Shown here piece after piece: positions 2-37,590 of a stretch of 64,000 bases of DNA (within the stretch, counting starts at the first letter, position 1; each line of letters starts with the position of its first letter). The stretch lies in the NCBI RefSeq assembly GCF_016916835.1, contig NZ_JAFFIX010000007.1, positions 248,001 to 312,000 on the forward strand. The letters run 5' to 3'. The stretch comes from Actinacidiphila bryophytorum (GTDB lineage Bacteria > Actinomycetota > Actinomycetes > Streptomycetales > Streptomycetaceae). The notes under the pieces were generated by a model. It was not told the origin of the DNA and did no database searches. It saw only the letters and a program-made list of their open reading frames with translations. Position numbers and translations under genes: made by a program.

Positions 2-1414
2 GTCGCCGAGGTGGCGGGCGGTGCGGCGGGCGCGCTGCGGGCGGCGCTTGCGGACCTGGACGGCACCGGCACGGTGGTCGTCACCGACGGGCTGACCAGC
101 ACCGCCGTGGCCGACGTCGGCTCGGCCGACGCACCGCTGGCCGACGTGGTGGTACGGGCGGCGGGCGCGGTACGCGCGGTGGTGCGGCTGGACGACAGCG
201 GTGGTCCCTGGGTCTTCCACGGCAGCCCGCCGGGTGCGGAACCGTCGGCCCGGCTGCGGCTCGAAGGCCTGCTGCTGTCGGGCCAGGACATCGTGCTGCG
301 CGGCGGTTTCGCCGACGTCGCCCTGGCGTGCTGCACCGTCGACCCGGGAACGGGCGGCGAGCTGTGCGAGCCCCCGACCATGTGGCAGCCGAGTGCGGAC
401 GGGCGTGACCTGCGGGCCGGCCGGGTCTGGGTCGAGGGCACGGTACGGAGGCTGACGCTCGACCGCTGCGTGACCGGCCCGCTGCGCGAGCGCGGCGGCG
501 GAACGGTCGAGACGCTGTGCGCGGCCGACTCCGTGATCCAGGCGGTGCCGAGCGACACGGGCGGCGCCCTGCGCCCCGAGGCGGTCTTCGATCCGGACGG
601 CCTGCTGCGGCTGCTGCGCGACCGGCGCGACGCGCTGACCGCGTGGCTGCACGGGCGGTTGGGTCCTGCGGCGGCCGTCGTGGACGCCCACGAAGACGGC
701 GCGGCCGTCGCGGCAGACGACCTCGCCGCGGTGGTCGCCGCACTGAACCATGTGCTCGCCGCGCCGATCTGGGACGCCGTGCGCTTCGCCGGCCGCGCCG
801 TCCCCGCGTCGCTGGCCGCGGCGGCCGGGGCGGGACCTGCGGGCGCCGACCTCTTCCGGCTCAACCGCGCCCTGCTGGCGGCCGCCTTCCCGCTCGAACT
901 CCTCGATGCCGCGCTCGCGTTCGGCGACGGCGTGGCCTGCGTCGAGCGCTGCACGGTGATCGGCGCGGGCCACCTGCACCGGCTGGAGGCGAGCGAGTCG
1001 ATCCTGGACGGCCCCGTGCGGGTCGCCGACCCGCAGAGCGGCTGCGTACGCTTCAGCGCCTGGTCCAGCGGCAGTACGCTGCCGCGCCGCTATGAGAGCG
1101 TCGAGATCGCCCCCGGCGCCCCGCTCTTCGCCAGCCGCCGCTTCGGCGAGGCCGGTTACGCGCAACTGGCCGACAACGCCGACGCCCTGGTCGTCTCCGC
1201 CGACGGTGCGGGGCGGCCCGCCATCCGCTCCGGCAGCCGGGAGGGCTCGGAGATGGGCGCCTTCTGCCGGGTCGGCAGCGCGGTCAAGGAGCGCTCCTTG
1301 CTGATCAAGTACCGGGAGTACCTGCCCGTCGGCCTCACCCCGGTCCTCGTCCCCATGCCCGCGCCGGACGCCGACGGGCAGACCCTGAGAGGCAGAGCAT
1401 GGCCACCGATGTGA
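2..1414 (+). CDS. eCIS/phage-tail-associated beta-helix protein (5' partial)
   Basis: The frame is open to the left edge (470 codons visible), so the true start is probably outside; an internal GTG at 11 is only the first possible start. I see no enzyme motif. Two stretches look like turns of a parallel beta-helix: one near codons 95-115 (LRGGFADVALACCTVDPG) and one near codons 310-355, with the pairs SESILDGP and GCVRFSAW followed by a PRRY segment. The C-terminus contains SEMGAFCRVG and EYLPVGLTPVLVPM. I recall this arrangement from uncharacterised proteins encoded beside DUF6519 and phage-tail-like genes, but that is family memory, not a search. The last 16 bases overlap the next gene, which implies translational coupling in one operon with the DUF6519 and eCIS_core genes. 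The role is unknown; a structural or surface-exposed component of an injection system is an inference. Confidence 0.6.
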   Translation, partial: VAEVAGGAAGALRAALADLDGTGTVVVTDGLTSTAVADVGSADAPLADVVVRAAGAVRAVVRLDDSGGPWVFHGSPPGAEPSARLRLEGLLLSGQDIVLRGGFADVALACCTVDPGTGGELCEPPTMWQPSADGRDLRAGRVWVEGTVRRLTLDRCVTGPLRERGGGTVETLCAADSVIQAVPSDTGGALRPEAVFDPDGLLRLLRDRRDALTAWLHGRLGPAAAVVDAHEDGAAVAADDLAAVVAALNHVLAAPIWDAVRFAGRAVPASLAAAAGAGPAGADLFRLNRALLAAAFPLELLDAALAFGDGVACVERCTVIGAGHLHRLEASESILDGPVRVADPQSGCVRFSAWSSGSTLPRRYESVEIAPGAPLFASRRFGEAGYAQLADNADALVVSADGAGRPAIRSGSREGSEMGAFCRVGSAVKERSLLIKYREYLPVGLTPVLVPMPAPDADGQTLRGRAWPPM

Positions 1415-4170: not shown

Positions 4171-4174
4171 GGCG

Positions 4175-7100: not shown

Positions 7101-10100
7101 GCATTCCCGTGCCGCTGTTCGGGCCGCTCTTCCAGGCGCTGGAGAACCTCGTCGCGCTCACCGGCGGGGTGCCCGGCGCGCCCAGCCTCCTCGACCTGGC
7201 AACGCTGCCGTACCCCAGCCCGGTCCCCTCCCCGCTCGACCTGCTCACCGACCGGGTCGTGGGCCACTACGACCCGACCGACTCCCCTGTCGACTACCTG
7301 TGGGGCCTCGCGTCCGAGGGGGGCCTGCGCCCGCCGCACAGCGTCGAGGAGCGGACCCGGGACGCGATCGGCAGGCTGCGCGCACTGGAGGTCACCTTCG
7401 ACGAACTCTCCCTGACCGGCCTGGTCCTGGGCGGCGACCAGCAGGTCGCCTCGGTCACCATCACGGATTTCGGCATCGGCGCCGCCCGCAGCCTGCCCGC
7501 CTACCTGCGGCTGCGCCAGCGCGCCCTGGAACGCACCCGCAAGCGCACACCGGCGGGACCGGAGCACGACCGGATCACCGCCGAGATCCGGGACCTCGAA
7601 AAGCAGCTGGCCCCGCTGCGCGTCCAGGAAGCACGGCTGGAGAGCCTGGAGAGCCGGGACCGGCTGCGCCCCGGATCGCTGGACAAGGCCGAGAGGGAAG
7701 AACTCGCCCGACTTTCCGACCTGCTGCGGGCGGACGCGGGCTTCATCATGGACATCGGCAGCATCACGATCGGCGCCCTGCACGGCCGGGTCACCGCGGC
7801 CGGTGCCGAGATCGGACCGGTCCACGCGCACACCCGCGCCCCCTCAGAAGTCCTCGCCCGCTTCGGACTCGACGCCCGCTACCTCGCGGACCCGGAACTG
7901 ATCGCCCGCTTCCAGGCGGGCGGCCCCCGCCCGGCGGACGCCGGCCTGCTCGCCGACCCGCAGCGTCGGCCGGAGTTCGTCTTCGAAGCCGGCCCGATCC
8001 GGCTGCTGCCCGGGCCGCCGGGACAGCCGGCCCTGCTGATCGCCGCCACCGAAATCCCGCCGGTGGACGCGATCCGGGCGCGGCTCGCGTCCCTGCCGCC
8101 CGGCGCCGACCCTGCCGTGCGCGAGCACCTGGCCCGCGCGGTCCGCCTGGCCGAGCAGATCGACACCTGGCACGTCCGGCCGGACCCGCCCGCCCAGGAG
8201 CTGCTGGAGGCCGAGGACGAACTGCGCGGCCTGCTCGGCTACTCCGCCGACAGCGTGGTCATCGGTGCCGTCAGCGCGGACCCGGTCACCGCGACGCAGG
8301 ACGGTGGGAAGACCGCCGTGCGGGCGGGGTTGCGCGTCTCCGGCATCAAGCTGACCGGTGTCCGCGGCCCGGGCTTCTCGGCCGCGGAGGTCACCGGGGC
8401 GGTCGGCCTGGGCGCCCGTTTCGCCGACGGCACCCTCACGCCCGAGGTGAGCGCCGACCTGACGGCGCACGGCGTCCACGCCGGGCAGGGCACCTTCGGC
8501 ACGCTCGGCGTCACCGGCCTGCGCGGCTCGCTGCGGCGGACCGCCGACGGCTACGCGGTCCCCGACCTGGCAGCGGACCGGGTCGAAGTCCTGGACTTCG
8601 CCGTCGGCGACCAGGCCAACGGAGTCACAGGCCGCCGCGCCACCCTGGTCGGCGTCACCCTCGACGCGGAATACCACCGGGCGGGCACGCAGCAGGAGCA
8701 CGCACGGATCGCCGAGCTGACCGTCGAACGGATCGAGGGCGAAGGGCTCGGCTACCACCGCACCGACGCCCAGGGCAGCCTGCACGCCTCGGTCGAGAGC
8801 GGCGCCCTGGTCGGCGTCCGGGCGACGGACGTCGTGCTGGCCCCGGGCGGCGACGGCTGGCAGCTCGGCTCCGCGGGGCTGACGGTCGGCCGCTTCGAGG
8901 ACGTGCGGTACGAGATCCTCGCCGCCGCGGTGACCGGCGGCGGGCGGCAGGCCGCGCCGGCCCCGTCCACCGGCGGCACGTCGGTCAGGGGCACTCTCAC
9001 GTCGGCGGCCGGCACCGGTCCTGTCGTCACGGCGCACTACGCCCGCGTCGGCGGCGACGACCACACCCTCGAACTCGCCGTGGCAGGCCTGGGAATCCAG
9101 CAGACCGCGGTACGCACCCCCGCCGCCGGCCTGGTCATCACCCGCACCCTGCTGTCCGGGCGGGTGCGCAGCACCGCACGCGACACCGGCCTGTCCCTGG
9201 AGCTGACCGACACCGAACTGCGGGCCATCTCCTGGCACTCCGGCGCCCGCAAGGTGACCGCCCCGGGGCCTGTCACCGTCGGCCGGGTCGAGCTCAGGGA
9301 CGCGGTCCTCACCGAACCGGACCCGCATGCCCAGGACATCGCCCGGCGCGCGCGCCGCCTGACCGTGGCGCAGCTGACCGTCCGGGACATCCGGGCACCC
9401 AGGGTCCACTACACGGACCCGCCGGTCGACCTCCAGCTGGCCGGAAGCGCCGAGCGCGGCTCGGCGGGACCGCGTATCGCCTCCGTCGAACTGCGGGACG
9501 TCGTCCTGCCCTTCACGCCCGCCGGGACACCGGACACCGACGCGGTGGCGGCACAGCTCGACGTCCGGGGCGCCTCCCTGCCCTTCGTACTGTCCGCGGG
9601 GGGGCTGCGCGACGGGCTGCGGGCAGCCGGGCGCCTCGACGTCGGGTCCCTGTCCGTACGGCTGCGGCCCGGCGGGCCGGTCACGGCGCACGCGGCCGGC
9701 GTGGCGGGCGAGGTCGACCTGGCCTCGGGGCACACCGCGGGCAAGGGCGCGGGCCTGCACACCTGGCTCACCTTCGGCGGCCTGGACAGCGGCGAGGTCA
9801 CGATCACCCCGCAGGCCGTCGAGGTCGCCGACCTGCGGCTGCCGAACCTCACCCTGTCCGCCTTCCGGCTGCGCTCGGGCGCCGGCTCCGGCTATGTCGC
9901 CGTCGACATGACCGACGGCGGCGGTGTCGACGTCAGCGGGGTCCGGGTCGCCGCGCGGCTTGAGCGCCCCCGGCCCGGCGCGGCAGGCCCCGGGCAGCCG
10001 GTGTTCACCCGTGTCGTGCTCAGCCGCGCCCGCGCCGACCGGATCGCCTTCGAGGGCCTCGACGCGCAGTTCGGCGCCGGGGCGGAACCGCTGTACGTCA

Positions 10101-11557
10101 GCGTGCCGGTGGTCCCCGGCGGCGCCCCGGCCACCCTCACGGGACTCGACCTCGGCGGCCCCGGCGGCTTCGTGTGGACGCCGGGCGGCGCCGACCCCTT
10201 CCTGGGCACCCTGCACGCCGACCGCCTGTCACTGCCCCGCCTGCGCGTCGAGGCCGCCAATGCCTTCCGCGGCGACCTCACCCTCACCACCGACGCGATC
10301 CACCTCGGACTGCTCCGCCGGGGCCGCAGCGAACTCGACGTCGACCGGCTCGCGCTGCGGCTGCTCGGCAGCGCGACACTCGGCAGCCCGCAGGAGCGGA
10401 TCAGCGTGGGGGCGGCGGGAGCAGAACACCTGCACCGCGCCGACGGCACGACCCGGCTCACCGGCGGCTACGCCGACCTGCTGCACTACGAGCGGCCCGG
10501 TGTGGAGATCGACGTGGAGCACGCCAAGCTGCCCGAGGCCGTCACGGCCCTGCCCGGCTCCCGCAGCATGACCGTGCCCAGGCTCGACCTGAGCGGCGCG
10601 CACCTGCGGATCGACTTCCGAGCGCTGCCGCCGGCCGCGGGCCGGCCGGACCCGCTAACGGTGACGCCCGAGCCGAAGGCGCTGCTGGACTCGCTGAACG
10701 GCACCCTCGGCATCCAGGCGGTCCTGCACGACATGGCGATCCTGCCCAGCGGGACGATCGAGCACACGGAGTACCGCCGGGACGTCGTCATCACCACGCC
10801 TGTCACCCTCGAAGGGGGCGAGGTCGACACCGCCGATCTGGCCGCATCGCTGTCCGCGCCCGGCGCCATCGCCTTCGCACCGGACTCCCTCCTGGACTTC
10901 GCGGTCCGCCATCCGCAGTTCGACGTGCAGGGCAGCCGGCTCTTCCTGTTCGTCATCATTCCCGTCACCTTCCACGGCGTGGGGAAGAACGTCCGCCGCA
11001 ACCTCCTGGCATGGCGGCTCAGGACTCCGGCGGATCTCGACCTGGCCCGCCTCCGGCACCGGGTCCGGCTGCGCACCCTGCTCGACGACATGGTCCAGGA
11101 GTCCGACGAGGCGGCGACCGACAGCGATGCCGAGAAGGCGAAGGTGCAGGCGGCCAAGGACGCGCCGACGGGCATCGACGTGAGCATCAGCCCCGGCAGC
11201 GGCCTGTCCGTCCACAGCCGCGAACCGGTCGGGCTGCAGCTGGCGTCACAGGGCGTCAACGGCCGCATCGGCCTGGGCTCCGATCCCTTCTCCGGGCTGA
11301 GGCTCAGCGGCAGCCTCGTGCTGTCGGCCCGCCCCGGCCACTCCGACCTCGGGAAGCTGGCCTTCCAGGTCGCCGAACTGACCGTCCCCTACGTCGACCT
11401 GACCGTCGAGGGGCACCGCGTGTCGGTCGGGGCGATCGAGATCCACGACCTGCACGACGCGTCAGTGTCCTTCGACGAACTGCGCCCACGCGTCCTGGAG
11501 GCGACGATCCGGCAGGCGACCGCCCGGAACATCGAGTGGTCGCAGCCCGGCAAGTGA
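4175..11557 (+). CDS. giant eCIS_core (DUF4157) domain protein, 2460 aa
   Basis: The start is GTG at 4175, or the ATG directly after it at 4178. Residues about 30-135 form an eCIS_core/DUF4157 domain with the zinc-peptidase-like motif HELAH at 95-99 (AHELAHLAQH). This domain marks proteins encoded with extracellular contractile injection systems, often cargo. Residues about 150-870 look alpha-helical, with two related segments at about 470-510 (GLFDWAVTDEDAR) and 650-690 (GLFSFDWWVSAAEA). Residues about 1100-1190 are strongly charged and probably a coiled coil (DLEKQLAPLRVQEARLESLE). From about 890 to the end, apart from that coil, the protein is a long series of short amphipathic beta-strands ending in D/G turns, reminiscent of AsmA/TamB-type repeats. 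No signal peptide or membrane segment is evident and no C-terminal toxin domain is recognised. The 3' end overlaps the convergent SARP gene by 96 bases. Cargo, scaffold or lipid-handling roles are all possible. Confidence 0.8.
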   Translation: MMYDAARAGSPAPAPDAGRKPAPDVGAARPDTGPVRDLVHRLAPQLGLDPGQVRVEAAESGLGGRLGGARAAAGEHGLLLRPSEMLDPEPALVAHELAHLAQHRNRARPPSATLPARPRAAADLTAAEAEAAAVADAARSGGALWRPRAVLPDGVLARDTGASGIAPRTADQLAVELTERVAANHPDEIALLGELFSDVWTTAEDRVESALTVLDGFGFVVARALVQCLRPQTRDRLARISGSQYGAHPRSAAAVLSVLTTRQLTALRHDPVYDLPQALAGLAPGALGPAELRGVHGTLHRLFAEAPDVTAELFDGPARTVLRALISLPTPPGTDADLLTTALAEERRVSADRRQVYGTDGPVTDRSTASGTGTLLLRDLTGRLASPGATAAREALDLLAGLVGGRGAEAAPAGPAAAIRLRLLVAELDARGLVDRLLDHLPAADRHDPDYSRVLTAVLSVRRPARTLARIESLLSYGLFDWAVTDEDARFAYLLVRSLPLAEQDAWRRLDGGKWYQRLEANLPAGMVTGGEYQGVGGEFAVAGPGVTGEAVAGLLKDVLVTWKARPGDGATAVSVVRRLLGLGPGGEEPPGGTPGVSRGLAAAVVRRLDALGDLPDIVEALPETYLTAEASRHELLDLTALRDPVNVQRQAAALLRTGLFSFDWWVSAAEAWLAHQLLRALSTAEQDRFEADHPGAWASAMSAMTPRMLASAAVGALTGRGEFPTREQLRAQLRDQRLWKDPARRFVLRALLDLAYRSDDRRWVLDQIHAHRDLAGLEDLAQRIEEAGDIAIPGWGDELVAAAGRGFRLLVAGGDLLLQVASTLPERTLRVELDVDDLREAVRGPLAGAEAARPAEPGGNRISIELEPEAGALTVRLASLDLRQLNVSRPGASFHTGDVHIRGLEIRAGYSDRRYRTPVGVRAQLGSLDARDVVAADPQLLPGGAAALARLLMTSLTLHAADVTGRALPAPRPGSIPVPLFGPLFQALENLVALTGGVPGAPSLLDLATLPYPSPVPSPLDLLTDRVVGHYDPTDSPVDYLWGLASEGGLRPPHSVEERTRDAIGRLRALEVTFDELSLTGLVLGGDQQVASVTITDFGIGAARSLPAYLRLRQRALERTRKRTPAGPEHDRITAEIRDLEKQLAPLRVQEARLESLESRDRLRPGSLDKAEREELARLSDLLRADAGFIMDIGSITIGALHGRVTAAGAEIGPVHAHTRAPSEVLARFGLDARYLADPELIARFQAGGPRPADAGLLADPQRRPEFVFEAGPIRLLPGPPGQPALLIAATEIPPVDAIRARLASLPPGADPAVREHLARAVRLAEQIDTWHVRPDPPAQELLEAEDELRGLLGYSADSVVIGAVSADPVTATQDGGKTAVRAGLRVSGIKLTGVRGPGFSAAEVTGAVGLGARFADGTLTPEVSADLTAHGVHAGQGTFGTLGVTGLRGSLRRTADGYAVPDLAADRVEVLDFAVGDQANGVTGRRATLVGVTLDAEYHRAGTQQEHARIAELTVERIEGEGLGYHRTDAQGSLHASVESGALVGVRATDVVLAPGGDGWQLGSAGLTVGRFEDVRYEILAAAVTGGGRQAAPAPSTGGTSVRGTLTSAAGTGPVVTAHYARVGGDDHTLELAVAGLGIQQTAVRTPAAGLVITRTLLSGRVRSTARDTGLSLELTDTELRAISWHSGARKVTAPGPVTVGRVELRDAVLTEPDPHAQDIARRARRLTVAQLTVRDIRAPRVHYTDPPVDLQLAGSAERGSAGPRIASVELRDVVLPFTPAGTPDTDAVAAQLDVRGASLPFVLSAGGLRDGLRAAGRLDVGSLSVRLRPGGPVTAHAAGVAGEVDLASGHTAGKGAGLHTWLTFGGLDSGEVTITPQAVEVADLRLPNLTLSAFRLRSGAGSGYVAVDMTDGGGVDVSGVRVAARLERPRPGAAGPGQPVFTRVVLSRARADRIAFEGLDAQFGAGAEPLYVSVPVVPGGAPATLTGLDLGGPGGFVWTPGGADPFLGTLHADRLSLPRLRVEAANAFRGDLTLTTDAIHLGLLRRGRSELDVDRLALRLLGSATLGSPQERISVGAAGAEHLHRADGTTRLTGGYADLLHYERPGVEIDVEHAKLPEAVTALPGSRSMTVPRLDLSGAHLRIDFRALPPAAGRPDPLTVTPEPKALLDSLNGTLGIQAVLHDMAILPSGTIEHTEYRRDVVITTPVTLEGGEVDTADLAASLSAPGAIAFAPDSLLDFAVRHPQFDVQGSRLFLFVIIPVTFHGVGKNVRRNLLAWRLRTPADLDLARLRHRVRLRTLLDDMVQESDEAATDSDAEKAKVQAAKDAPTGIDVSISPGSGLSVHSREPVGLQLASQGVNGRIGLGSDPFSGLRLSGSLVLSARPGHSDLGKLAFQVAELTVPYVDLTVEGHRVSVGAIEIHDLHDASVSFDELRPRVLEATIRQATARNIEWSQPGK

Positions 11558-17465: not shown

Positions 17466-18371
17466 TCAGGACGCCGTGGCCCAGTCGGGCAGCGCTTCGG
17501 TCCGCTCGGTCCAAGCCGCCGGGGGTTCGCCGCCGGGCCGGGCGGAGACTATGCCGCCGACGATCGCGCAGGTCGTGTCGACGTCGCCGCCGGCCTTCGC
17601 GGTGGCCCAGAAGGCCCGCTCGTAGTCCCCGAGATGGCGGGCCGCCGACCACAGGGCGAAGGGCACGGTGTCGTGGGCGCTCGTGCGACGGCCGCAGCCG
17701 AGCACCGCGGCGACGGTGGCCACGTCGGCGTAGTCGAGCATGTCCCGCGCCCGCCGGATGCCGGCCTGCACGGCGCTGCGCGGCACGACGTCGAGGACCG
17801 CGCCGAGCAGGTCCGAGGGGGCCTGCGGCCCGTCGGGGTCGGCGGCGAGCGCGGCCGCGGCGGCGACCGCCATCGCTCCGGCGACCGCCTCGCGGTGCTG
17901 GTGGGTGGTGTAGGCGGAGATCTCGGCCTGGTGGCTGGCCTGGACGGGGTCGCCCGCGTACCAGGCGCCGAGCGGGGCGACGCGCATGGCGGCGCCGTTG
18001 CCCCACGAGCCCTGCCCGTTGAAGAGGGCCGCCGCCAGCTCACGCCAGTCGGCTCCCTCCTGGCGGATGAGCCGCAGCATGCGGTTGACGGCGGGGCCGT
18101 ACCCGCGGTCGAAGTCGTGCCGCTCGGCGAAGGACAGGGCCAGCGCGTCCTGGTCGATACGCCCGTGGCCGACGAGCACGGCGACGACGGAGCAGGCCAT
18201 TTCGGTGTCGTCGGTCCACTGCCAGGCACCGGGCGGGAGTTCGCCCTTCTGCAGTGCCGTGTAGTGGGCGGGGACGAAGAACTGGGAGCCGAGTGCGTCG
18301 CCGACGGCGAGGCCCCGGAGGCTGGTGAGGGCGCGGGAGACTCGCGCGGAGTGGGTGGTGTGAGCCGTCAT
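17466..18371 (-). CDS. ADP-ribosylglycohydrolase family protein
   Basis: This 301-residue protein belongs to the DraG/ARH family, which hydrolyses ADP-ribose from proteins or related N- and O-glycosidic bonds using two Mg2+ ions. The metal-binding elements are present: [13 protein letters not shown] near the start, [25 protein letters not shown], and [17 protein letters not shown] near the C-terminus. ATG 18371 places the conserved GDALG motif at the usual distance; an upstream extension to 18461 is open but less likely. The physiological substrate cannot be read from the sequence, and no ADP-ribosyltransferase partner is nearby. Confidence 0.9.
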
Positions 18372-28384: not shown

Positions 28385-28487
28385 AGGAGGGCAAGCCTAC
28401 GGGCAGCCACCGACAGCGGCGTCCCGTCGCGCTGTTGCCGCCCGTCCGCGGGACCGGTCCCGCCTGGCGGTGCTAGCTTCTGGTCAC

Positions 28488-29651
28488 ATGCCGTTCGAGC
28501 GCCGACTGACCCTTGACTCCTCGGCCGCCGAGTACGTGATCGACGTCGCCAACGTGGTGCGCGAGCCGGCGCTCGGCGGGACGCGGGCGGCGGACCTGGA
28601 CCGGCTCGCGGGACTGCTCGACGCCCTGGCGGACTTCGCCCGCGACCCGGCGGTGCAGGTCTACGCGATCACCGACCGCTCGCTGCTGACCGACGGGCGG
28701 CTGACGGCGCGGGAGCGGGACCTGCTGGAGGGCTGGTACCGGGGCGGGAAGCTGGAGGTGCTGCCGCGCGCAGACGACCGCATCCTGGAGCTGGCCGACG
28801 CCCTCGGCCTGCGGGTGGTCAGCGCCGACAACTTCCTCGACTTCCACCGCGCCTACCCGTGGATCCCCGGTGACCGCGACCGCTTCCTGCGCCCGGTCCT
28901 GGAGCCCGGCGGGCGCATAGGGGTCCGGCCCAGGATCATGCCGGTGCCCGAGGAGTGGCAGGTGTCCCGCAAGGAGGAGGAGGGCCTGCTGCTGCGTGCC
29001 GGGGTGGTCAGGCGCTGGGAGCACTCGGCTGCGCACCGGGCGGTGCTGAGCCGCGACTGGCGCTGCCCGGAGGCCGGCTGCCCCCTCTTCGGTGCGACCG
29101 GCAGGCCCGGCACCGCCCTGCCGCGGCGCCGCAAGGACCGGGTGCTGTGCCCCACGCACGGTGTGCAGCTGACCGACGCAGGGCCGCTGCGCCCGCGTGC
29201 GCAGGTCAAGGTGGTCATGGACGGGACGGTGCGGGGCCGCTTCATGGTCACCGAGGGCGACCCGGTGGCTGTGGGCCGCGCCCCGGCGGGCGGCGGGGTG
29301 GCGCTCGGCGCCTGGATCGAGGACAGCGCGGTGGAGTCGGTGAGCAGAACCCACGTGGTGCTCAGCTACGAGGGCGGCGCCCTCAGCGTGCTGGACGAGC
29401 GCAGCGCGAACGGCACCTGGGTGCGGCGGCGGCTGCCGGGCGGCGACTCGACGGGCCCGCTGGCGCACGGCGTCACCCGCAGGCTGCGCAGGGGCGAGTC
29501 GGTGGTGCTGCACGACCGGCTGGAACTGCTGCCGAGCGGGCGGCAGTTCGTCTTCGAGGACGACCCGGCGGACGGTACGGTCACAGCGCGGGGCAGCAGC
29601 GCGGCAGCGGAACCCACGATGATGCAGCTGCCGTTGCACGACATGGGCTGA
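28488..29651 (+). CDS. NYN/PIN-like nuclease - zinc site - FHA domain protein
   Basis: This 387-residue protein has three parts. Residues about 10-135 look like a NYN/PIN ribonuclease fold, with acidic positions at Asp19 (VIDVANVV), Asp96-Asp97 (RADDRILELAD) and Asp114/Asp118 (VSADNFLDF). Residues 193-224 hold a probable zinc site (Cys193, Cys198, Cys221, His224; CPEAGCPL and LCPTHG). Residues about 255-345 are a forkhead-associated domain with VGRAP, SRTHV and SANGTWV, which binds phosphothreonine peptides. ATG 28488 begins the protein; 52 codons of open frame upstream are not supported. The kinase gene starts 12 bases after the stop, so the two are cotranscribed and the FHA domain is a likely kinase target or docking site. 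The nuclease assignment is by eye. Confidence 0.8.
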   Translation: MPFERRLTLDSSAAEYVIDVANVVREPALGGTRAADLDRLAGLLDALADFARDPAVQVYAITDRSLLTDGRLTARERDLLEGWYRGGKLEVLPRADDRILELADALGLRVVSADNFLDFHRAYPWIPGDRDRFLRPVLEPGGRIGVRPRIMPVPEEWQVSRKEEEGLLLRAGVVRRWEHSAAHRAVLSRDWRCPEAGCPLFGATGRPGTALPRRRKDRVLCPTHGVQLTDAGPLRPRAQVKVVMDGTVRGRFMVTEGDPVAVGRAPAGGGVALGAWIEDSAVESVSRTHVVLSYEGGALSVLDERSANGTWVRRRLPGGDSTGPLAHGVTRRLRRGESVVLHDRLELLPSGRQFVFEDDPADGTVTARGSSAAAEPTMMQLPLHDMG

Positions 29652-29663
29652 ACGGGGGGCGCA

Positions 29664-30857
29664 GTGGCGGTGGAGATCGGTGTCGGTACGGTCCTGAGCG
29701 GTCGCTACCGGCTGGAGCAGCTGCTCGGCGGAGGCGGGTTCGGGCAGGTCTACGCGGCCCTCGACCAGGGTCTGGGCCGACGGGTCGCGGTGAAGGTGCT
29801 GACGCTGCGCGCCGAGTGGGCCGACGTCGAACGCAGCGAGCGCCAGGGGCGCTTCCGCCGCGAGGCGATCGCGGCCGCCGCGCTGAGCCACCCGAACGTG
29901 GCGACGATCCATGACGCGGGCGAGCACGAGGGGCAGCCCTTCATCGTCATGGAGCTGCTGCCGGGCACCGACTTCCGCAATGTGCTGCTGGACCGGGGCG
30001 GGCTGCCTGTACCCGACGTGCTGGCGTACGGGGCGCAGATCTGCGCCGGGCTGCAGCACGCCCACGAACGCGGCCTGGTGCACCGCGACATCAAACCCGA
30101 GAACCTGATGCTGCTCCCGGACGGCGTCGTCAAGATCTGCGACTTCGGCCTCGTCGCCCCGCAGGACCAGAATGTGACGCGCTATACCGAGCCGCAGGCG
30201 CTGCTCGGCTCGCCGCCGTACTTCACCCCGGAGCAGGCGCAGGGCGGCGAGGTCACCGCGCAGTCCGACCTGTACTCGCTCGGCTGCGTCCTCTACGCCA
30301 TGCTCGCGGAAGGGCCGCCCTTCACCGCGGGGAACTACATCGGCTACGCCTATCTCCACGTACACGAGGAGCCCGAGCCGATCGTGCACCGGCGCCCCGA
30401 GGTGCCCTCGGAGCTGGCGCAGCTGATCCACCAGCTGCTCGCGAAGGCCCCGCGGGACCGTCCGGCCAGTGCCGCGGAGGTGGGCGCGCGCCTGCGGGCG
30501 ATGATGCGGCCCTCGCCCCTGCGGCGGACCCCGACGGCCCTGGACCGCGGCGCCCGGCACCTGGTGTGGACGCTGATCGAGGAGGGTGAGGCGCTGCTCT
30601 CCGCCGGGCGCTTCCACGACGCGGACGACCGGTACTGGCAGGCGCGGCAGCAGATCCTGCGGCAGGGCGCGGACAGCGAACCGGCGTCCTTTGCCGCGCT
30701 TTTCGGCCGGGCGCGGGCGCTGGAGGGCCTCAACGGCGTCGAGTCGACCCGCAGGCAGCTCGAAGAGCTGGCCGCGAGCACGGCGGAGGCGCTGGGCGCC
30801 GACCATCCGCTCTCCCGGTGCACCGCCGCCTACGCGTCGGTCAGGGCAGCACACTGA
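29664..30857 (+). CDS. Hanks-type serine/threonine protein kinase
   Basis: This is a 397-residue soluble kinase. The glycine loop is LLGGGGFGQVY (20-30), the ATP-anchoring lysine is Lys44 (VAVKVL), the catalytic loop HRDIKPEN begins at 140, and DFG is at 160-162, followed by a normal activation segment (LLGSPPYFTPEQ). Kinase homology ends near 280. The last about 105 residues are helical and TPR-like (LIEEGEALLSAGRFHDADDRYWQAR), and there is no transmembrane segment or PASTA repeat, unlike PknB. GTG 29664 is preceded by GGGGGG. It lies between two FHA genes and its last 17 bases overlap the convergent FHA gene. Confidence 0.95.
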   Translation: MAVEIGVGTVLSGRYRLEQLLGGGGFGQVYAALDQGLGRRVAVKVLTLRAEWADVERSERQGRFRREAIAAAALSHPNVATIHDAGEHEGQPFIVMELLPGTDFRNVLLDRGGLPVPDVLAYGAQICAGLQHAHERGLVHRDIKPENLMLLPDGVVKICDFGLVAPQDQNVTRYTEPQALLGSPPYFTPEQAQGGEVTAQSDLYSLGCVLYAMLAEGPPFTAGNYIGYAYLHVHEEPEPIVHRRPEVPSELAQLIHQLLAKAPRDRPASAAEVGARLRAMMRPSPLRRTPTALDRGARHLVWTLIEEGEALLSAGRFHDADDRYWQARQQILRQGADSEPASFAALFGRARALEGLNGVESTRRQLEELAASTAEALGADHPLSRCTAAYASVRAAH

Positions 30858-31482
30858 CGTGGACGTCGGCGGCCAGCCGGAAGGTCTCCCCCGGCCGCAG
30901 TGCCGCCTTGTGGTTCGCGGTGAGCCGGTAGCCGCGCACATAGGTGCCGTTGGTGGAGCCCTCGTCGGTGATCCATGCCGAGCCGTCGGCCTCGACACCG
31001 ACCCGCGCGTGGATACGTGACAGGTTGTCGCGGTCGGCGAGGAAGGTGACCGCGGGGCACAGCTGCGGGTCGCGGCCCAGCCGGATCGAGTAGCCGGGCG
31101 CCACCTCGACGACGTCGCCGCTGGGGAAGTGCAGCCGCAGCGCGTCCACGGGGATGTCCCTGCGGGTCCGCGCTGCCCTGGGCAGGGCGCCGGGGATGAC
31201 GTTGATGACCCGGGTGTGCTCGGTGTCCGCCCGGGCCTCGGGCGGCTCGCCGGCGGCAGGCCCCGGCCCCTGGATGTCGCCCGGCGGCCGGTCCTGCGGG
31301 GGGACTCCCGGGCGGGGCAGCCGCTCGGTCGGGGCGGTCGGCGAGACCGACGGCGCGGCTGCGGCATGTGCCGCGGCCATCAGGGCGAACGGCACGAAGC
31401 AGCCCTGGCAGACCAGTTGGCCGGCGAAGGAGCGGGGCATGCCGCATTCCGGGCAGGATCCGACGCCCGTTTCCTCGCGCAT
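30841..31482 (-). CDS. zinc-ribbon FHA domain protein
   Basis: This is a 213-residue protein. The N-terminus has a zinc-ribbon pattern, Cys10, Cys13, Cys25 and Cys28 (CPECG and CQGC), then a Pro/Ala-rich linker of about 60 residues. A C-terminal FHA domain (residues about 120-210) follows, with the phosphopeptide-binding elements RLGRDPQL, LSRIHARV and STNGTYV. The threonine-bearing linker segment DTEHTRVINVIPG resembles the kinase-target motifs of GarA-type proteins, but the spacing is different. ATG 31482 is the last sensible start; the frame runs open far upstream as a GC artefact. It is convergent with the kinase (17-base overlap) and is a plausible substrate or reader of that kinase. Confidence 0.85.
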   Translation of the reverse strand: MREETGVGSCPECGMPRSFAGQLVCQGCFVPFALMAAAHAAAAPSVSPTAPTERLPRPGVPPQDRPPGDIQGPGPAAGEPPEARADTEHTRVINVIPGALPRAARTRRDIPVDALRLHFPSGDVVEVAPGYSIRLGRDPQLCPAVTFLADRDNLSRIHARVGVEADGSAWITDEGSTNGTYVRGYRLTANHKAALRPGETFRLAADVHVSVLP

Positions 31483-31571
31483 CCGCCCCCATCCCTCCGC
31501 GGTACGACCGGTGCCGCGATCGTATCGGCTGGCGCGTCGGGATGGCGCGATCGGAGGTCGGACCACGCGCG

Positions 31572-33335
31572 TCAGACCACGTGCAGCGGGTTGGGCACAG
31601 TGCCGTGCACGGCGGCGTGCGGCCGCTCGGCGCGGTCGCGGTAGCCGTCCAGGTGCAGCCGGTTGCGGTTGAGGCAGAGCCGGTCGATCCGCGGGGTGAG
31701 CAGGTCGAAGCTGGCGAATCGTTCCTTGAGGTGCGGGAAGCGCTCCTGGTAGCGGATGATCTCGTCGCGCACCAGTGCCCAGAAGTCCGCCTCGGGGACG
31801 TGGAGCTGGTCCCTGCACAGCGGTGCCAGATAGCGCAGGACGCCCACGAAGAGACCCGAATGGATGAACTGCGTGAGGAATCCGGGCTCCTCGGTGAGCA
31901 GCACAGCCCTGACGTCGTCGGGCATGGTGCCGTGCTCGGGCAGCGCCTCGGCGCTGACGTTGACGTCGTCGACGAAGTCCTTGACGGCGAGCCGCACCGG
32001 CACGTCGTGCTCGTCGAAGACCACGATGGCGTTCTCTCCGTGCGGGGAGAAGACCGTGCCGTAGCGGTAGAGGAAGTGCAGCAGCGGCGGCAGCAGCGCA
32101 CAGAACAGGTGCCGCAGCCAGACCGCGGGCGCGACCCCGGATCGCGTGACCAGTTCCGCGGTGAACGAGCGGCCGTAGGTGTCGGTGTGCAGCAGCGCGG
32201 CAAGGGTGCGCGCCCGCTCCCCCGGTTCGAGGTGCGCGGCCAGCGGTTCGCGCCAGATGCAGCCCAGCAGTTCGCGGTATTGGTACGGGACGGTCGGCAG
32301 CCGGTCGTACTGCGGGTGCGCGACGGTCACCGAGGCGACCTCGCCGAGCAGGATCACCCGGGTCTCGTCGCACAGAAACGGATCTTCCGCATGCAGCCGC
32401 TGGACCCACGCGGTGACCGCGGGCGCGGCAAGGGTGCGTTCGGTGGGCAGGCCGCGCCAGACCAGGGTGTTGAGCACCGACAGCGGCAGCTTGACCGTAC
32501 GGCGCTGCGGGCGGCTGGTGTTGAGGAAGGTCCTGACGGACTGCTGGGGCAGCCGGAGGTCGTTGTCGGTGCCCAGGGCGATGATGGACCCGTCGGCGAC
32601 CGCGGGCGCGAAGAGCGGCAGGACGACGTGCTCCCACTGCCAGGGGTGCACCGGCAGCAGCAGGTAGTCCGCCGGGTCCTTGTCGCGGTCGGCGACGGTG
32701 TGCCGGAAGGAGTCGAGCGTGGCGGGCGGCAGCTCGTCCGCGTAGAGCAGATCGGGGGTGGCCAGCGTGTCGACACCGCGGTACTTGGCCAGGCTGTGGT
32801 GCACGGCGATCCACGGCAGGCGGTGCTGCCTGCGGGCCTCGGGCGCCCAGCGGGCCGCGTCGGCGTCCGAGAAGCCGATACGCCCCTTGTTCGCGACCAG
32901 CCACGGGTGCCCGGTCTGGTGCCCTTCCAGCTCCGCGTAGTCCAGGTCCGCCAAGTCGGCGGCTGGCAGCGCCTCCTCGGCAAGGCGCAGGTCGGCGCGC
33001 AGCGTGGTGAGGAGTTCGCGGATGAGGTGCCCCGTGGTGTCGCCGCCCAGGCCGAGCACTGCGTCGTGCGCCTGGCTGACGAAGTGCAGCGGGTCGCCGT
33101 CGGGGCCGATGCTCGCCGGGTCCACCTGCCAGCTGCCGTACGCGCCCCGGCCGGCCTGGAAGCGGTAGGTGAGCGTGTCGCTGATCCGCAGGCGGTAGGC
33201 GGCGGGCCCGGCCGCGGGGTCCGGCTCCGGGACGATGACCTCCTCGTAGGCGAACTCGGCGAGCATCTTCGCCAGCAGGCGCCGGGCCGCGCTCTGCCAG
33301 GCGGACGGGTCGGGGGCGGGAGGGGTGCTGATCAC
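31572..33335 (-). CDS. IucA/IucC family NIS siderophore synthetase (second copy)
   Basis: NIS synthetases adenylate a carboxylate such as citrate and condense it with an amine or hydroxyl. This 587-residue protein has the family motifs VHPWQWEHVVLP, GRSFTAELVTRSG, FSPHGENAIVVFD and VKDFVDDVNV, with the FhuF-like C-terminal helices at the end. Its length and motif set resemble the DesD-type enzymes that finish siderophore assembly. The start is GTG 33335 with GGAG about ten bases upstream. It is the last gene of the four-gene cluster, separated from the acyltransferase by 162 bases that may carry an internal promoter or only a repeat-rich spacer. Confidence 0.92.
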   Translation of the reverse strand: MISTPPAPDPSAWQSAARRLLAKMLAEFAYEEVIVPEPDPAAGPAAYRLRISDTLTYRFQAGRGAYGSWQVDPASIGPDGDPLHFVSQAHDAVLGLGGDTTGHLIRELLTTLRADLRLAEEALPAADLADLDYAELEGHQTGHPWLVANKGRIGFSDADAARWAPEARRQHRLPWIAVHHSLAKYRGVDTLATPDLLYADELPPATLDSFRHTVADRDKDPADYLLLPVHPWQWEHVVLPLFAPAVADGSIIALGTDNDLRLPQQSVRTFLNTSRPQRRTVKLPLSVLNTLVWRGLPTERTLAAPAVTAWVQRLHAEDPFLCDETRVILLGEVASVTVAHPQYDRLPTVPYQYRELLGCIWREPLAAHLEPGERARTLAALLHTDTYGRSFTAELVTRSGVAPAVWLRHLFCALLPPLLHFLYRYGTVFSPHGENAIVVFDEHDVPVRLAVKDFVDDVNVSAEALPEHGTMPDDVRAVLLTEEPGFLTQFIHSGLFVGVLRYLAPLCRDQLHVPEADFWALVRDEIIRYQERFPHLKERFASFDLLTPRIDRLCLNRNRLHLDGYRDRAERPHAAVHGTVPNPLHVV

Positions 33336-33497
33336 GGTGGGCTCCAGCGGGGGGACCGGGGTGCGGGCGGGGGGTGGGGGGTGGGGACCGGTACCTCTCG
33401 GCCGGCACCGCTCGGGGGGGTGCTGCGGGTGGGGTTTCCGGTGGCGTATTTCCGGTCGGGAACTGCGGATCGGGACCTTCCGATCGGGTCCTTCCGG
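33336..33497. repeat. G-rich degenerate repeat spacer in the siderophore cluster
   Basis: The spacer begins with a run of G tracts (about 33345-33390) and continues with imperfect copies of TTCCGRTCGGG (about 33447-33500). It contains no convincing promoter. It could form strong secondary structure in the mRNA between the acyltransferase and the second synthetase. Confidence 0.5.
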
Positions 33498-34208
33498 TCA
33501 GAGCAGGTGGCGCAGAGCGCGGTCGCGGATCATCAGGGCCGCACGCTTGCCCGGCACTTCGGCCTCGGCGGACAGCCGGAAGCCGGCGGCCAGGAAGGCC
33601 GCCACGGAAGGCGTGTTGCGCAGGTCGGGTTCCGCGACGACCCGGACGCACCCGGGGCGGTGGTCGAGGACCAGGTCGGCGACCGCCCTGATCAGGGTGC
33701 CGCCCAGGCCGCGGCCGCGGTCGGCGGCGCCGCCGATGAGCAGGTGGACGCCGGTGTCCTGCGGCCTGGCCGGGTAGCACCTGGCCAGCGGGTCGAGGTC
33801 GGCGCGGTAGACCTCCCAGTAGCTCATCGGGGTGCCGTCGAGCAGGCCGAGGCACGGGACGCTGCGGCCGTCGCCGCCGAGCTGGGCGGCCAGGTGCCGG
33901 GCGGTCACCGCGGGCGCGCCCGCCAGCTCCCAGAAGGCCGCGACCGACGGGTCGTTCATCCAGGCGCTGACGAGGGCAATGTCGCGTTCCGCATCGACGG
34001 GGGCGAGCCGGAAGTGTCCCGCGGGCGTGTCGGCGGTGGCCCAGCCGGCGATGTCCCCGACCAGGGCGGACCCGGCGGCGGAGTGCGGGGACCGCGGGCC
34101 GGGGGTCGCGGGGCGCGGCAGGTCGTCGCGGGCCGCGAAGAGCGCCAGGAAGTCCGGCGGCAGGGTCAGGTCGAGGGTGTCCTCGGTGCCGGAGTCGGCA
34201 GATGGCAA
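33498..34208 (-). CDS. GNAT acyltransferase of the siderophore cluster (IucB/AlcB-like)
   Basis: This 236-residue acyl-CoA N-acyltransferase belongs to the group that acylates hydroxylamino groups in siderophore pathways. The segment FRLAPVDAERDIALVSAWMNDPSVAAFW is typical of the IucB/AlcB branch, and the CoA-binding loop is RGRGLGGTLIRAV. The catalytic region continues with VRVVAEPDLRNTPSVAAFLAAGF. The start is TTG 34208, chosen because GGAGGAGCGACC lies directly upstream; there is no nearby ATG. The first about 65 residues are extra and unassigned. It sits 33 bases after the first synthetase gene. Confidence 0.88.
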   Translation of the reverse strand: MPSADSGTEDTLDLTLPPDFLALFAARDDLPRPATPGPRSPHSAAGSALVGDIAGWATADTPAGHFRLAPVDAERDIALVSAWMNDPSVAAFWELAGAPAVTARHLAAQLGGDGRSVPCLGLLDGTPMSYWEVYRADLDPLARCYPARPQDTGVHLLIGGAADRGRGLGGTLIRAVADLVLDHRPGCVRVVAEPDLRNTPSVAAFLAAGFRLSAEAEVPGKRAALMIRDRALRHLL

Positions 34209-34241
34209 GGTCGCTCCTCCTCTCCCGGGCGGGGCCGCCGG

Positions 34242-36116
34242 TCAACCGGCCAGCGGGTTGGGGATGGTGACGTACACCGACTGGGTGTCGACCGGGCCGA
34301 CGAGTTCGTCCATGCCCTGCAGCCGGGTCAGCAGGTTGGCCTTGCAGCGCAGGTGCGTGCTGTCCAGCAGCAGGCCGGACAGGCCGCTGCGGCCGGTCTG
34401 CGCCTCCCTGGCCAGGAAGCGGCGGAAGGCGGCGAGCAGCACCCGCTCGTCGGCCAGCTGCTGCGACCCGAGGGCGCCGATCAGACCGAGGACGTTGTTG
34501 ATGCCGGCGTAGTAGGCGAAGCGTTCGTCGGCGGTCCGGTCCGCGACGAAGGTGTCGCTGGCGGCGCCGAGGCCCGGCAGCCGCCGCTCCAGGTCCGGGC
34601 GGTGCGACTCGCGGTAGTAGTAGCCCTGGTTGTCCCGGTAGCGGCCGCCGCTGGGCCAGCCGTCCGCGTCGAGCAGCACCAGGGTGTTCTGCTGGTGCGC
34701 TTCGAGTGCGATGCCCGCCTCGCCGTCCAGCCAGAGCAGCGGGCGGACCACCGCGTCGAGGTAGCGCAGGAACCACTCGGTGGCGACGGCGGGCTCCGGG
34801 CGCCCGGTCCGCTCCGCGAGCCTGGTGACGGTCACGGCAAGCCGCGAACGCAGAACGTGCGCGCCGCCGTCGGCGGGCCAGGGCCGCGGTGAGGCGAGCC
34901 CGGCGACGCAGTGCGCATCGTCCCCGGGGCCGAAGGGGTTGTGCCGGAGCACGACGTCCAGGCCCGGTACCGCTTCGCCGTCCGCGGTGTCGACGGCGAG
35001 CCAGGCCGGGTCGCGCACGATGTCGAAGCCGGGGTGGGCGGCGCGCCACTCGGCAGCCAGTCCGCTGCGCAGCAGCCGGTGGACCTCGGTGCCGCGCAGC
35101 AGCTCCTTGCGCAGGTTCTCCCGGCGGGAGTTGGTGATGCGCAGGCCGAGGGACAGCTTGAGCATCGCCGGGGCGTCGTGCCGGTAGACGGTGCGCACCG
35201 ACGAGGTCGGGTGCCATGCCTCGCCGTGCGGGCCGAGGTCGTGCAGCAGCCCGGCGTCGAAGAGCGCCCGTACGCCCGGCCTGTGCCGGATGTCGCGCGC
35301 CTGCCAGGGGTGCAGCGGCAGCAGCGCGGTGCCCTCGGGGCGGGCCGGTCCCGCGCCCGCGAAGGAGCCGATCAGGTCGACCGCGGGGATGGGGCGCCCC
35401 CGTTCGGTCCAGGCCGAGTCGGTGGCGAGCAGGTCCTCGTGCACGGCCAGCCAGTGCAGTTGGAAGGAGCCGCACGCTTCGGGCGAATAGGCCGCGCTCT
35501 CGGCGCTGCTGAGCCCTTCGCGGCTCTTGGGGGTGGGGTGCATCGGGTGCCCGAGCACCAGGGCCTGCTCCGAGTCGAGGAAGGGCAGGTCCGGGTCTGC
35601 GGGTCCGGGACGGCTGCGGCGCTCGGCGATGAAGCCGGCAGTGCGGCGGACCGAGTCGGCCACCCTGGCCACCAGGTCGGCGGACTGTGCGGGTTCGCCG
35701 CCGCCTTCCCTGGCCAGCAGGGCGGACAGCTCCACCGCGGTCAGCGCAGGGCCGCTCACTGCGGGGTGGGCCGGGCCGAAGCGGTGGTGCCCGGTGGGCG
35801 ACCAGTGGATGACCGCAGCCAGGGCCTCGGTGCCGCTGGCGGGAAGCGCCACCCGCAGGACGCCGTCGGCGGGCCGGGGCAGGCCCCGCTCCCGTACCCA
35901 GCAGCGCAGCAGGTTGTCCGTCGCCACGGCGTCGGCGACGCGATAGGCGTCGGGGTGCCGCAGCAGGTCGGCTTCGGCCGCCGCGGAGCCGGGCAGCTGC
36001 GGCCCGGCGGGCTGCGGAAGGTGCGGGCGCTGGGGCGGCACCCCGGCCGGTTCTGCCTCGGGTTCCAGGGCCGGTTCCGCGGCCGGGGCGGTGGCGACTT
36101 CTGCGGGGGCGGTCAT
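34242..36116 (-). CDS. IucA/IucC family NIS siderophore synthetase (first copy)
   Basis: This 624-residue synthetase has HPMHPTPKSREGL (the ATP/citrate region), LHPWQARDIRH, SSVRTVYRHDAPAMLKLSLG, ALEAHQQNTLVLLD and RDNQGYYY. The C-terminal FhuF-like part contains RFAYYAGINNVLGLIGALG. The first about 55 residues are Ala/Pro/Glu-rich and probably disordered. ATG 36116 is preceded by GGAG. With two different synthetases, the pathway can add two amines, one to each end of a dicarboxylate or citrate core, as in aerobactin or rhizobactin assembly. It follows the aminotransferase gene by 55 bases. Confidence 0.92.
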   Translation of the reverse strand: MTAPAEVATAPAAEPALEPEAEPAGVPPQRPHLPQPAGPQLPGSAAAEADLLRHPDAYRVADAVATDNLLRCWVRERGLPRPADGVLRVALPASGTEALAAVIHWSPTGHHRFGPAHPAVSGPALTAVELSALLAREGGGEPAQSADLVARVADSVRRTAGFIAERRSRPGPADPDLPFLDSEQALVLGHPMHPTPKSREGLSSAESAAYSPEACGSFQLHWLAVHEDLLATDSAWTERGRPIPAVDLIGSFAGAGPARPEGTALLPLHPWQARDIRHRPGVRALFDAGLLHDLGPHGEAWHPTSSVRTVYRHDAPAMLKLSLGLRITNSRRENLRKELLRGTEVHRLLRSGLAAEWRAAHPGFDIVRDPAWLAVDTADGEAVPGLDVVLRHNPFGPGDDAHCVAGLASPRPWPADGGAHVLRSRLAVTVTRLAERTGRPEPAVATEWFLRYLDAVVRPLLWLDGEAGIALEAHQQNTLVLLDADGWPSGGRYRDNQGYYYRESHRPDLERRLPGLGAASDTFVADRTADERFAYYAGINNVLGLIGALGSQQLADERVLLAAFRRFLAREAQTGRSGLSGLLLDSTHLRCKANLLTRLQGMDELVGPVDTQSVYVTIPNPLAG

Positions 36117-36171
36117 ACAGGGGCTCCACTGGTCATTGCCGCGGGGCTGCGCGGGATGTCGGGTGCGGGCG

Positions 36172-37590
36172 TCATGCGGCGGCGCCGGATGCGGTGGTGC
36201 GGGCGGCCTCGATGGCTCCTGCGAGGCGTTCGAGTACGGCCTCGGCCTGCTCGTCGGTGATCGTCAGCGGTGGCAGCAGCCGGGCGACGCTGCCGTGCCT
36301 GCCGCCGAGTTCGATGATCAGCCCGCGGCGCAGCGCCTCGCGCTGGATCTGCGCGGCCAGGTGCGGGGCCGCGGGCTGGGCACCGTAGTCGTCCGGCTCC
36401 GCGTCGGCGTCCACGATCTCGACGCCGATCATCAGACCGCGGCCCCTGACGTCGCCGATGCACGCGTGGTGCGCGGCCAGTCCGCGCAGGCGGCTGAGCA
36501 TGCGCGCGCCGATCGAATCGGCCCGCTCGTCCAGGGCGTTGCGGCGGACGAAGCGCAGCGTCGCCGTGCCGGCGGCCATGGCCAGCTGGTTGCCGCGGAA
36601 GGTGCCGGCGTGCGCGCCGGGCAGCCAGCCGTCCAGCTCCTCGCGGTAGACGATGACGGCCAGCGGCAGGCTGCCGCCGATGGCCTTGGACATCACCATG
36701 ACGTCGGGCACGATGCCGCTGCGCTCGACGGCCCAGAAGGTGCCGGTCCTGCCGACCCCGGTCTGCACCTCGTCGACGACCAGCGGGATGCCGCGGTCCG
36801 CGGTGATCGTCCGCATGCGCCGCAGCCAGCCGTCCGGGGCCGGGATCACACCGCCTTCGCCCTGCACCGCTTCGAGCAGCATCGCCGCGGGCGGGCGCAC
36901 ACCGCCCTTGGGGTCGTCCAGCAGGTGTGCTGTCCAGCGCGCGGACAGTTCCGCGCCCCGCTCGCCGCCGACGCCGAAGGGGCAGCGGTAGTCGTACGGG
37001 TAGGGCAGCCGGGTGATCTGTGCGTCGGAGCCGCGGACGGCCGCGCGGACCGCGGTGTCACCCGTTGCGGCGAGTGCCGCGGCGGTCATGCCGTGGTAGG
37101 CGCCGGAGAAGGCGAGCAGCCCGTCGCGGCCTGTGGCGGTCGTGGCGAGTTTGATGGCCGCCTCGACGGCGTCGGTGCCCGCGGGACTGCAGAACTGGAT
37201 GCGGCCGTGGCCGGCCAGTGCGGGCGGCAGCGTCTCGAAGAGGGCCGTGGTGAAGGCGTCCTTGACCGGCGTGGCGAGATCCAGCACATGCAGCGGCGCA
37301 CCGGAGTCGAGGACACCCCTGATGGCCTCCAGCACGACGGGGTGGTTGTGGCCGAGCGCCAGGGTGCCCGCTCCCGACAGGCAGTCCAGGTAGCGGCGGC
37401 CGTCGGCGCCCTCGACGGTCATGCCGCGGGCGCGCACCGGGACCACCGGCAGCGACCGCGCATAAGTGCGGGCCGCCGACTCGCGCTGCGCCTGCCTGCG
37501 CAGGATCCCCTCCGCCGCCGCCATGCCGTTCCGCCCGTCAAAGCCTCCGGCCGCCGCGAGATGTTCCGACGCGCTCGAAATGGCCGCCAC
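36172..37590 (-). CDS. diaminobutyrate--2-oxoglutarate transaminase (class III aminotransferase)
   Basis: This 472-residue PLP enzyme is related to EctB, RhbA and Dat, which make L-2,4-diaminobutyrate from aspartate semialdehyde and glutamate. The PLP lysine is Lys302 (MSKAIGGSLP), the phosphate-binding and ring elements are FCSPAGTDAVEAA and FSGAYHGMT, and the aspartate is in LVVDEVQTGVGRTGTF. The substrate assignment rests on overall similarity and the siderophore setting; other omega-amino acids are possible. The start is GTG 37590 with GGAGAC nearby. It is the first gene of the cluster. The 216 bases upstream, shared with the divergent protease gene, contain no recognisable DmdR/IdeR iron box. 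Confidence 0.9.
   Translation of the reverse strand: MAAISSASEHLAAAGGFDGRNGMAAAEGILRRQAQRESAARTYARSLPVVPVRARGMTVEGADGRRYLDCLSGAGTLALGHNHPVVLEAIRGVLDSGAPLHVLDLATPVKDAFTTALFETLPPALAGHGRIQFCSPAGTDAVEAAIKLATTATGRDGLLAFSGAYHGMTAAALAATGDTAVRAAVRGSDAQITRLPYPYDYRCPFGVGGERGAELSARWTAHLLDDPKGGVRPPAAMLLEAVQGEGGVIPAPDGWLRRMRTITADRGIPLVVDEVQTGVGRTGTFWAVERSGIVPDVMVMSKAIGGSLPLAVIVYREELDGWLPGAHAGTFRGNQLAMAAGTATLRFVRRNALDERADSIGARMLSRLRGLAAHHACIGDVRGRGLMIGVEIVDADAEPDDYGAQPAAPHLAAQIQREALRRGLIIELGGRHGSVARLLPPLTITDEQAEAVLERLAGAIEAARTTASGAAA

Follow-up and report, generated by a model that had tools for sequence, protein, structure and literature searches.

A candidate phosphothreonine-gated NYN ribonuclease module with a Ser/Thr kinase and two FHA proteins in Actinacidiphila

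Can RNA decay in an actinomycete be placed under the control of a Ser/Thr kinase? This question is raised by a three-gene locus of the soil actinomycete Actinacidiphila bryophytorum, whose 8.05-Mb genome carries about 40 Ser/Thr kinases; few outputs of actinomycete kinases are known. We analyzed the locus in a 64,000-nucleotide stretch of this genome (contig NZ_JAFFIX010000007.1, positions 248,001 to 312,000; hereafter, the window). Gene 1 encodes a protein with a predicted NYN/PIN-like domain, a zinc-binding motif and an FHA domain; gene 2, which follows after a gap of 12 nt, encodes a soluble Ser/Thr kinase; and gene 3, which encodes a zinc-ribbon/FHA protein, is convergent, with its 3΄ end overlapping that of the kinase gene by 17 nt. 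On balance, and with modest confidence, we favor the reading that this trio is a chromosomal phospho-gated NYN ribonuclease module. If true, a kinase controlling an RNase via FHA domains would link phosphosignalling to RNA decay, and the locus would offer a tractable bacterial counterpart of Regnase-type NYN ribonucleases, with named residues to test.

A first-pass annotation of the window had proposed this set of an NYN/PIN-zinc-FHA protein, a soluble kinase and a convergent zinc-ribbon FHA protein, and both genes and domains were confirmed at the coordinates given in Table 1. All three reading frames are open, and Pfam models identified an FHA domain in gene 1 (E = 8e-5, which exceeds the gathering cut-off) and in gene 3 (E = 1.7e-10, residues 134–203), as well as a Pkinase domain in gene 2 (E = 6e-49); the initial 166 residues of gene 1 had no Pfam match. 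The ratios of nonsynonymous to synonymous substitution rates (dN/dS) against four congeners were 0.14–0.22, 0.09–0.17 and 0.27–0.33 for genes 1, 2 and 3, respectively; purifying selection acts on all three genes. Because these ratios are low and intact orthologues occupy the same slot in 18 out of 35 Actinacidiphila genomes (closest named orthologue, A. cocklensis, 91% identity), the three genes are not chance open reading frames.

Predicted ribonuclease fold of the gene 1 protein

A full-length profile search of PDB sequences returned FHA proteins as the significant matches, and we therefore modeled the NYN part by itself; the VIA rows for the full-length gene 1 model were mostly FHA. The AlphaFold model of the NYN part, built from homologues, reached a predicted local distance difference test (pLDDT) score of 93. 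With this predicted model, the best 26 Foldseek rows were all NYN-clade ribonucleases, and 19 out of 19 VIA rows with Z ≥ 8 were NYN RNases (Z 8.0–11.7), namely plant PRORP1/2, ZC3H12A/B/C (Regnase/MCPIP1), KHNYN and human MRPP3. The top match was PRORP2 (5diz; Z 11.7, 137 aa, root-mean-square deviation 3.5), and further matches included ZC3H12C (7ndk, Z 10.8), MCPIP1/Regnase (3v33, Z 10.7) and KHNYN (8wzc, Z 10.1), whereas the next fold class, FEN/XPG, began at Z 6.8. The nuclease fold that the first-pass annotation had assigned to the N-terminus is thus borne out by prediction: this region would adopt an NYN/PIN-like fold, kin in fold to human Regnase-1.

PRORP2 also came first, with a weak score (E = 0.03), when PDB sequences were searched by profile, and in the resulting alignment D19, D96 and D114 fall on the first, third and fourth acidic motifs. 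In PRORP1, D399, D474, D475 and D493 bind two metal ions (PMC4477676). By motif, the equivalents of these ligands in the window protein are D19, D96 and D114. The adjacent D97 varies within the family, and a further acid, D63, is conserved. The first-pass annotation had singled out Asp19 and Asp114, which are indeed present and conserved, and Asp63 and Asp96 are to be added to them: all four acids are kept in every kinase-linked homologue examined. The dN/dS over the NYN domain was 0.14–0.19.

Gene 1 thus resembles ZC3H12/Regnase (PF11977), PRORP, KHNYN and MRPP3 in predicted fold and in the order of its acidic motifs, and ZC3H12 proteins also in having a zinc motif after the NYN domain. The zinc residues C193, C198, C221 and H224 are invariant in all aligned homologues. 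Unlike these RNases, to which its identity is about 17%, the gene 1 protein is bacterial, joins an FHA domain and a Thr tail to the NYN domain in the same polypeptide, and carries a C-x4-C...C-x2-H zinc motif rather than the CCCH of ZC3H12. It lies below the gathering cut-off of PF11977 (Zc3h12a in the strict sense) and is no match to it; however, a Streptomyces paralogue encoded in a six-gene operon (L100) passes this model (23.3 versus 23 bits) and matches gene 1 across the same motifs (E = 3e-6).

Kinase linkage and candidate phosphothreonines

The kinase domain of gene 2 (residues 15–268) is a complete Hanks type with HRD and DFG, and no transmembrane-like stretch was found in the protein. 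Its C-terminal region appears helical and is conserved as far as S. scabiei and Actinomadura, with no Pfam match. Gene 2 scored below the cut-off of the PknB/PASTA kinase model NF033483 (303.8 versus 450 bits). PADLOC PD-T4-6 models match it through a similar kinase domain, but we discarded this label as uninformative, since these models match any Ser/Thr kinase.

Homologues of gene 1 outside the genus are scattered (30–50% identity) over Streptomyces, Frankia/Parafrankia, Nocardiopsis, Microbispora, Actinomadura, Micromonospora and Actinoplanes. We examined 24 of them with intact acidic residues, and in 17 the immediate neighbor is a Ser/Thr kinase gene; about 1% adjacency would be expected per gene, because the 8.05-Mb genome holds about 40 genes for kinases. 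The linked kinases vary in architecture (soluble, membrane or WD40-fused), and related homologues adjoin CHAT/caspase or WD40-kinase genes. The same trio is found at other genomic sites in S. scabiei, S. coacervatus and Actinomadura sp. CNU-125, where a second, membrane kinase (784–824 aa) is encoded directly after the gene 3 counterpart on the same strand; both Streptomyces trio loci adjoin an rpoC-type gene for an RNA polymerase subunit. A phosphatase/vWA operon (Table 1) is encoded divergently from the NYN-zinc-FHA gene in two Streptomyces and in Microbispora, and gene and operon together look like a more extensive nuclease system under phosphorylation control.

The FHA domain of gene 1 keeps G263-R264, S286-R287-x-H289 and N308-G309, and that of gene 3 likewise has the FHA signature residues (GR, SxxH, NG); the NCBIfam OdhI equivalog scores were 13.5 and 12.3 bits, below the cut-off of 200. 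Although the C-terminal tail of gene 1 drifts as a whole (dN/dS about 1 against two congeners), T377 within it is present in 76 out of 78 aligned homologues and is a candidate phosphosite. The long and variable linker of gene 3 contains two further candidate phosphothreonines in P-T-x-x-L-P (T52) and E-x-T-R-[VI]-[IL] (T90), motifs that persist in most genus orthologues. The gene 3 zinc ribbon is shared by the Streptomyces and Actinomadura versions, which have a shorter first knuckle.

We accordingly propose the following scheme for a phospho-gated module. The kinase would phosphorylate Thr377 in the nuclease tail and Thr90, perhaps also Thr52, in the gene 3 linker. The FHA domains may then read these phosphothreonines, either in cis, like GarA/OdhI, or from one protein to the other, and such reading would assemble or release the nuclease, switching it on or off. 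The output would be an NYN-type metal-dependent ribonuclease degrading RNA, and the zinc motif that follows the NYN domain may assist in holding the RNA. The first-pass annotation had suggested phosphorylation-controlled RNA cleavage. Its functional link to a kinase is supported by conserved neighborhoods at unrelated sites and by near-invariant candidate phosphothreonines, whereas cleavage, phosphorylation, FHA binding and the direction of control are what we infer; the conserved Thr tail, the linkage kept elsewhere and the block-like gain and loss described below go beyond that annotation.

A possible, though on the whole unlikely, version is a cis switch of the GarA/OdhI type, in which pThr377 would fold onto the FHA domain of the same protein to open or close the NYN active site, leaving the zinc-ribbon FHA protein as a separate substrate. 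In its favor, conservation of the tail Thr goes along with that of the FHA domain, even in homologues that lack a zinc-ribbon FHA partner, and the GarA and OdhI FHA structures are among the structural matches. Moreover, in GarA a kinase-targeted Thr motif (ETTS) outside the FHA fold controls the FHA switch (PMC12321487); however, the GarA site is N-terminal and T377 is C-terminal. The trio resembles GarA/OdhI with PknB/PknG in combining an actinobacterial kinase with an FHA protein that has a candidate Thr site outside the FHA fold, but GarA acts in trans on metabolic enzymes, which it regulates, and lacks a nuclease domain.

Gain and loss of the trio and its possible role

Within the genus, the trio largely comes and goes as a block. 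Among the 35 genomes, 18 carry an intact nuclease gene and 3 a broken one (G010, G022 and G030); 24 have the kinase and 25 the zinc-ribbon FHA gene, whereas dinG is present in all 35 and the IucA gene in 31. All 18 genomes with an intact nuclease also have the kinase and zinc-ribbon genes, so that an intact nuclease without its kinase was never seen in the genus, and 10 genomes lack all three genes. In a close relative (G024, DinG 97% identical), the site is cleanly empty: the junction (L166) joins window positions 28460 and 31571, with about 16 nt between them.

Partial losses affect the nuclease in particular. Deletions corresponding to about 28480–29098 of the window in G030 and about 28596–29549 in G010 leave the kinase and zinc-ribbon genes intact, with a kinase dN/dS of 0.10–0.13 in these genomes; a four-genome clade (G006, G018–G020) has the kinase and zinc-ribbon genes and no nuclease, and in G022 the nuclease is broken and the kinase is a fragment. 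This asymmetry, drawn from a small number of events, fits an effector that depends on its regulators. The patchiness looks like loss within the genus, because the slot is fixed and remnants of the zinc-ribbon gene are present in G011 and G021. A mobile-element origin was rejected, as the dinG–IucA/IucC slot is fixed across the genus and no phage or plasmid homologues were found. Given the patchy distribution of the set and the fact that the nuclease is lost more easily than its other parts, the trio most likely serves a conditional response, to stress or phage, rather than housekeeping.

The same data bear on regulated RNA processing or decay, in which a Regnase/PRORP-like enzyme with a specific target would be tuned by the kinase during growth or development. 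The closest folds are RNases with defined RNA targets, the NYN domain is followed by a zinc motif, as it is in ZC3H12 proteins, and the retention of the kinase without the nuclease suggests that the kinase has other jobs. However, 17 out of 35 genomes of the genus lack the nuclease gene or have it broken, which would not be the case for a housekeeping RNase, and we regard this explanation as unlikely. Abortive infection, with a kinase that senses infection and licenses growth-stopping RNA degradation, is possible but doubtful. Patchy block presence, selective nuclease loss, the CHAT/caspase and WD40-kinase neighbors of related homologues and the occurrence of PIN+FHA effectors in VMAP ternary conflict systems speak for it. 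Against it, the genus neighborhood consists of housekeeping (dinG, lexA, nrdR) and siderophore genes, the locus shows no defence island or mobile element, and the PD-T4-6 matches would fit any Ser/Thr kinase. These two explanations, as well as the cis switch, can be compatible with a phospho-gated ribonuclease.

Several findings weigh against the phospho-gated ribonuclease itself. The first 175 residues of gene 1 matched no library model, including Pfam NYN, and the putative active site is drawn from sequence and predicted fold. N308 is replaced, mostly by Tyr, in several kinase-linked Streptomyces and Frankia homologues. A shuffle test for T-x-hydrophobic in the tails gave 11 out of 17 versus 6.3 expected, a modest enrichment; because this test is weak, the case for T377 is the conservation of the aligned Thr. 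Homologues of gene 1 were found in neither phage nor plasmid collections, and no defence-island context was found around the trio. Finally, Micromonosporaceae homologues keep the zinc motif, FHA domain and T377, but always lack D63 and mostly D96 or D114, so the FHA part can function without a nuclease. This loss could mean that the NYN domain has no catalytic role and serves for RNA binding or as a scaffold, in a module that is purely signalling. Since all four acids are kept in the kinase-linked homologues examined, and with a dN/dS of 0.14–0.19 over the domain, we consider this improbable; the Micromonosporaceae homologues have no kinase neighbor, and their acid loss represents one or few events because they are one lineage. 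Judged by their sequences, the homologues at L111–L165 (Micromonospora, Actinoplanes, Phytohabitans) form a pseudonuclease subfamily. These homologues are widely conserved and share an 'APTM' tail and an adjoining aminotransferase gene.

The first-pass annotation knew of no described system with this set. Our literature searches for NYN, FHA and kinase together gave nothing specific, so that the statement holds for the exact trio in the literature searched, but not for its elements: the trio builds on known parts, as FHA/kinase signalling is classical and PIN+FHA effector polypeptides were reported in the vWA-MoxR-VMAP ternary conflict systems of multicellular bacteria (Kaur et al. 2020, PMC7159879). 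Actinobacterial conflict systems already hold kinase/PP2C/vWA gene sets, with kinases among the effectors (PMC7159879). The trio is like these in joining a PIN-type RNase and FHA in one actinobacterial polypeptide and in its kinase, but no vWA, MoxR or VMAP gene lies beside it in the window, and its other members are a soluble kinase that stands alone and a further FHA protein; the published set may include this family. The anti-phage kinase PD-T4-6, although similar in its kinase domain, is a single gene that is not known to have a nuclease or FHA partner. TerY-P is a vWA/PP2C/kinase system, for which the literature search returned no paper. The broader claim, that a phosphothreonine-gated, Regnase/PRORP-like NYN nuclease with its own FHA reader and phospho-tail, a dedicated soluble kinase and a second FHA adaptor form a previously undescribed immunity or stress module that has spread among actinomycetes, is put forward tentatively, as a plausible idea that falls short of probable.

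Upstream region, feature coordinates and neighboring genes

In an alignment of 12 orthologous upstream regions, a conserved TGCTAgcTTCTGGtCAcATG resembles an extended –10 element and lies 8 nt 5΄ of the gene 1 ATG, and no obvious Shine-Dalgarno sequence precedes this codon (28440–28490). These two features suggest that the gene 1 transcript is possibly a leaderless mRNA. A palindrome, GCGGGACCGGTCCCGC, lies just 5΄ of the –10-like element and is conserved only in part. SOS control through the adjoining lexA/dinG was considered and rejected, as no LexA-box-like sequence was seen by eye in the 103-bp intergenic region.

Table 1. Coordinates of the features discussed (window positions unless a locus is named)
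Feature	Position	Strand	Basis
Gene 1, NYN-zinc-FHA protein, 387 aa	28488-29651	+	Open reading frame, Pfam, alignment, purifying selection
Predicted NYN/PIN-like ribonuclease domain, residues 1-175; acids D19, D63, D96, D114	28488-29012	+	AF2, Foldseek/VIA, conserved columns
Zinc-binding motif C193-C198-C221-H224, between NYN and FHA	29064-29159	+	Alignment
FHA domain, residues 234-355	29187-29552	+	Pfam FHA; FHA structures, Z about 12-13.5
Disordered C-terminal tail	29553-29648	+	pLDDT < 50
Thr377, candidate phosphosite in tail	29616-29618 (codon)	+	Alignment of homologues
Gene 2, soluble Ser/Thr kinase, 397 aa, GTG start	29664-30857	+	Pfam Pkinase
Gene 3, zinc-ribbon/FHA protein, 213 aa, convergent	30841-31482	-	Pfam FHA, alignment
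Zinc ribbon C10-x2-C13 ... C25-x2-C28 of gene 3	31399-31455	-	Conserved in genus
Thr90 of gene 3, motif E-x-T-R-[VI]-[IL], candidate phosphosite	31213-31215	-	Alignment, genus orthologues
Divergent intergenic region, dinG/gene 1, 103 bp	28385-28487	+	Alignment of 12 orthologous upstream regions
Block absent from close relative, clean empty site between dinG and IucA/IucC gene	28461-31570		L166 junction
Second membrane-anchored kinase, Streptomyces and Actinomadura versions	L096:10866-13220; L097:10452-12926; L098:5265-7631		
Operon: PP2C/SpoIIE phosphatase, vWA, NYN-FHA paralogue, degenerate kinase, coiled-coil protein	L099:1855-7896; L100:1716-7846; L101:1761-7717		

The trio is flanked upstream by the divergent dinG-type helicase gene and downstream by a siderophore-type IucA/IucC cluster (31572–37524), which comprises two IucA/IucC synthetases, a GNAT acetyltransferase and a class III aminotransferase; lexA, nrdR and nrdJ are also found around it in the window. 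At greater distance, a gene for a DUF6519 protein (1399–4170) is followed by one for a 2459-aa protein, and the genes of this region (1399–11557) are possibly part of an extracellular contractile injection system. An ADP-ribosylglycohydrolase family protein is encoded at 17466–18371 (Pfam E = 5.6e-53).

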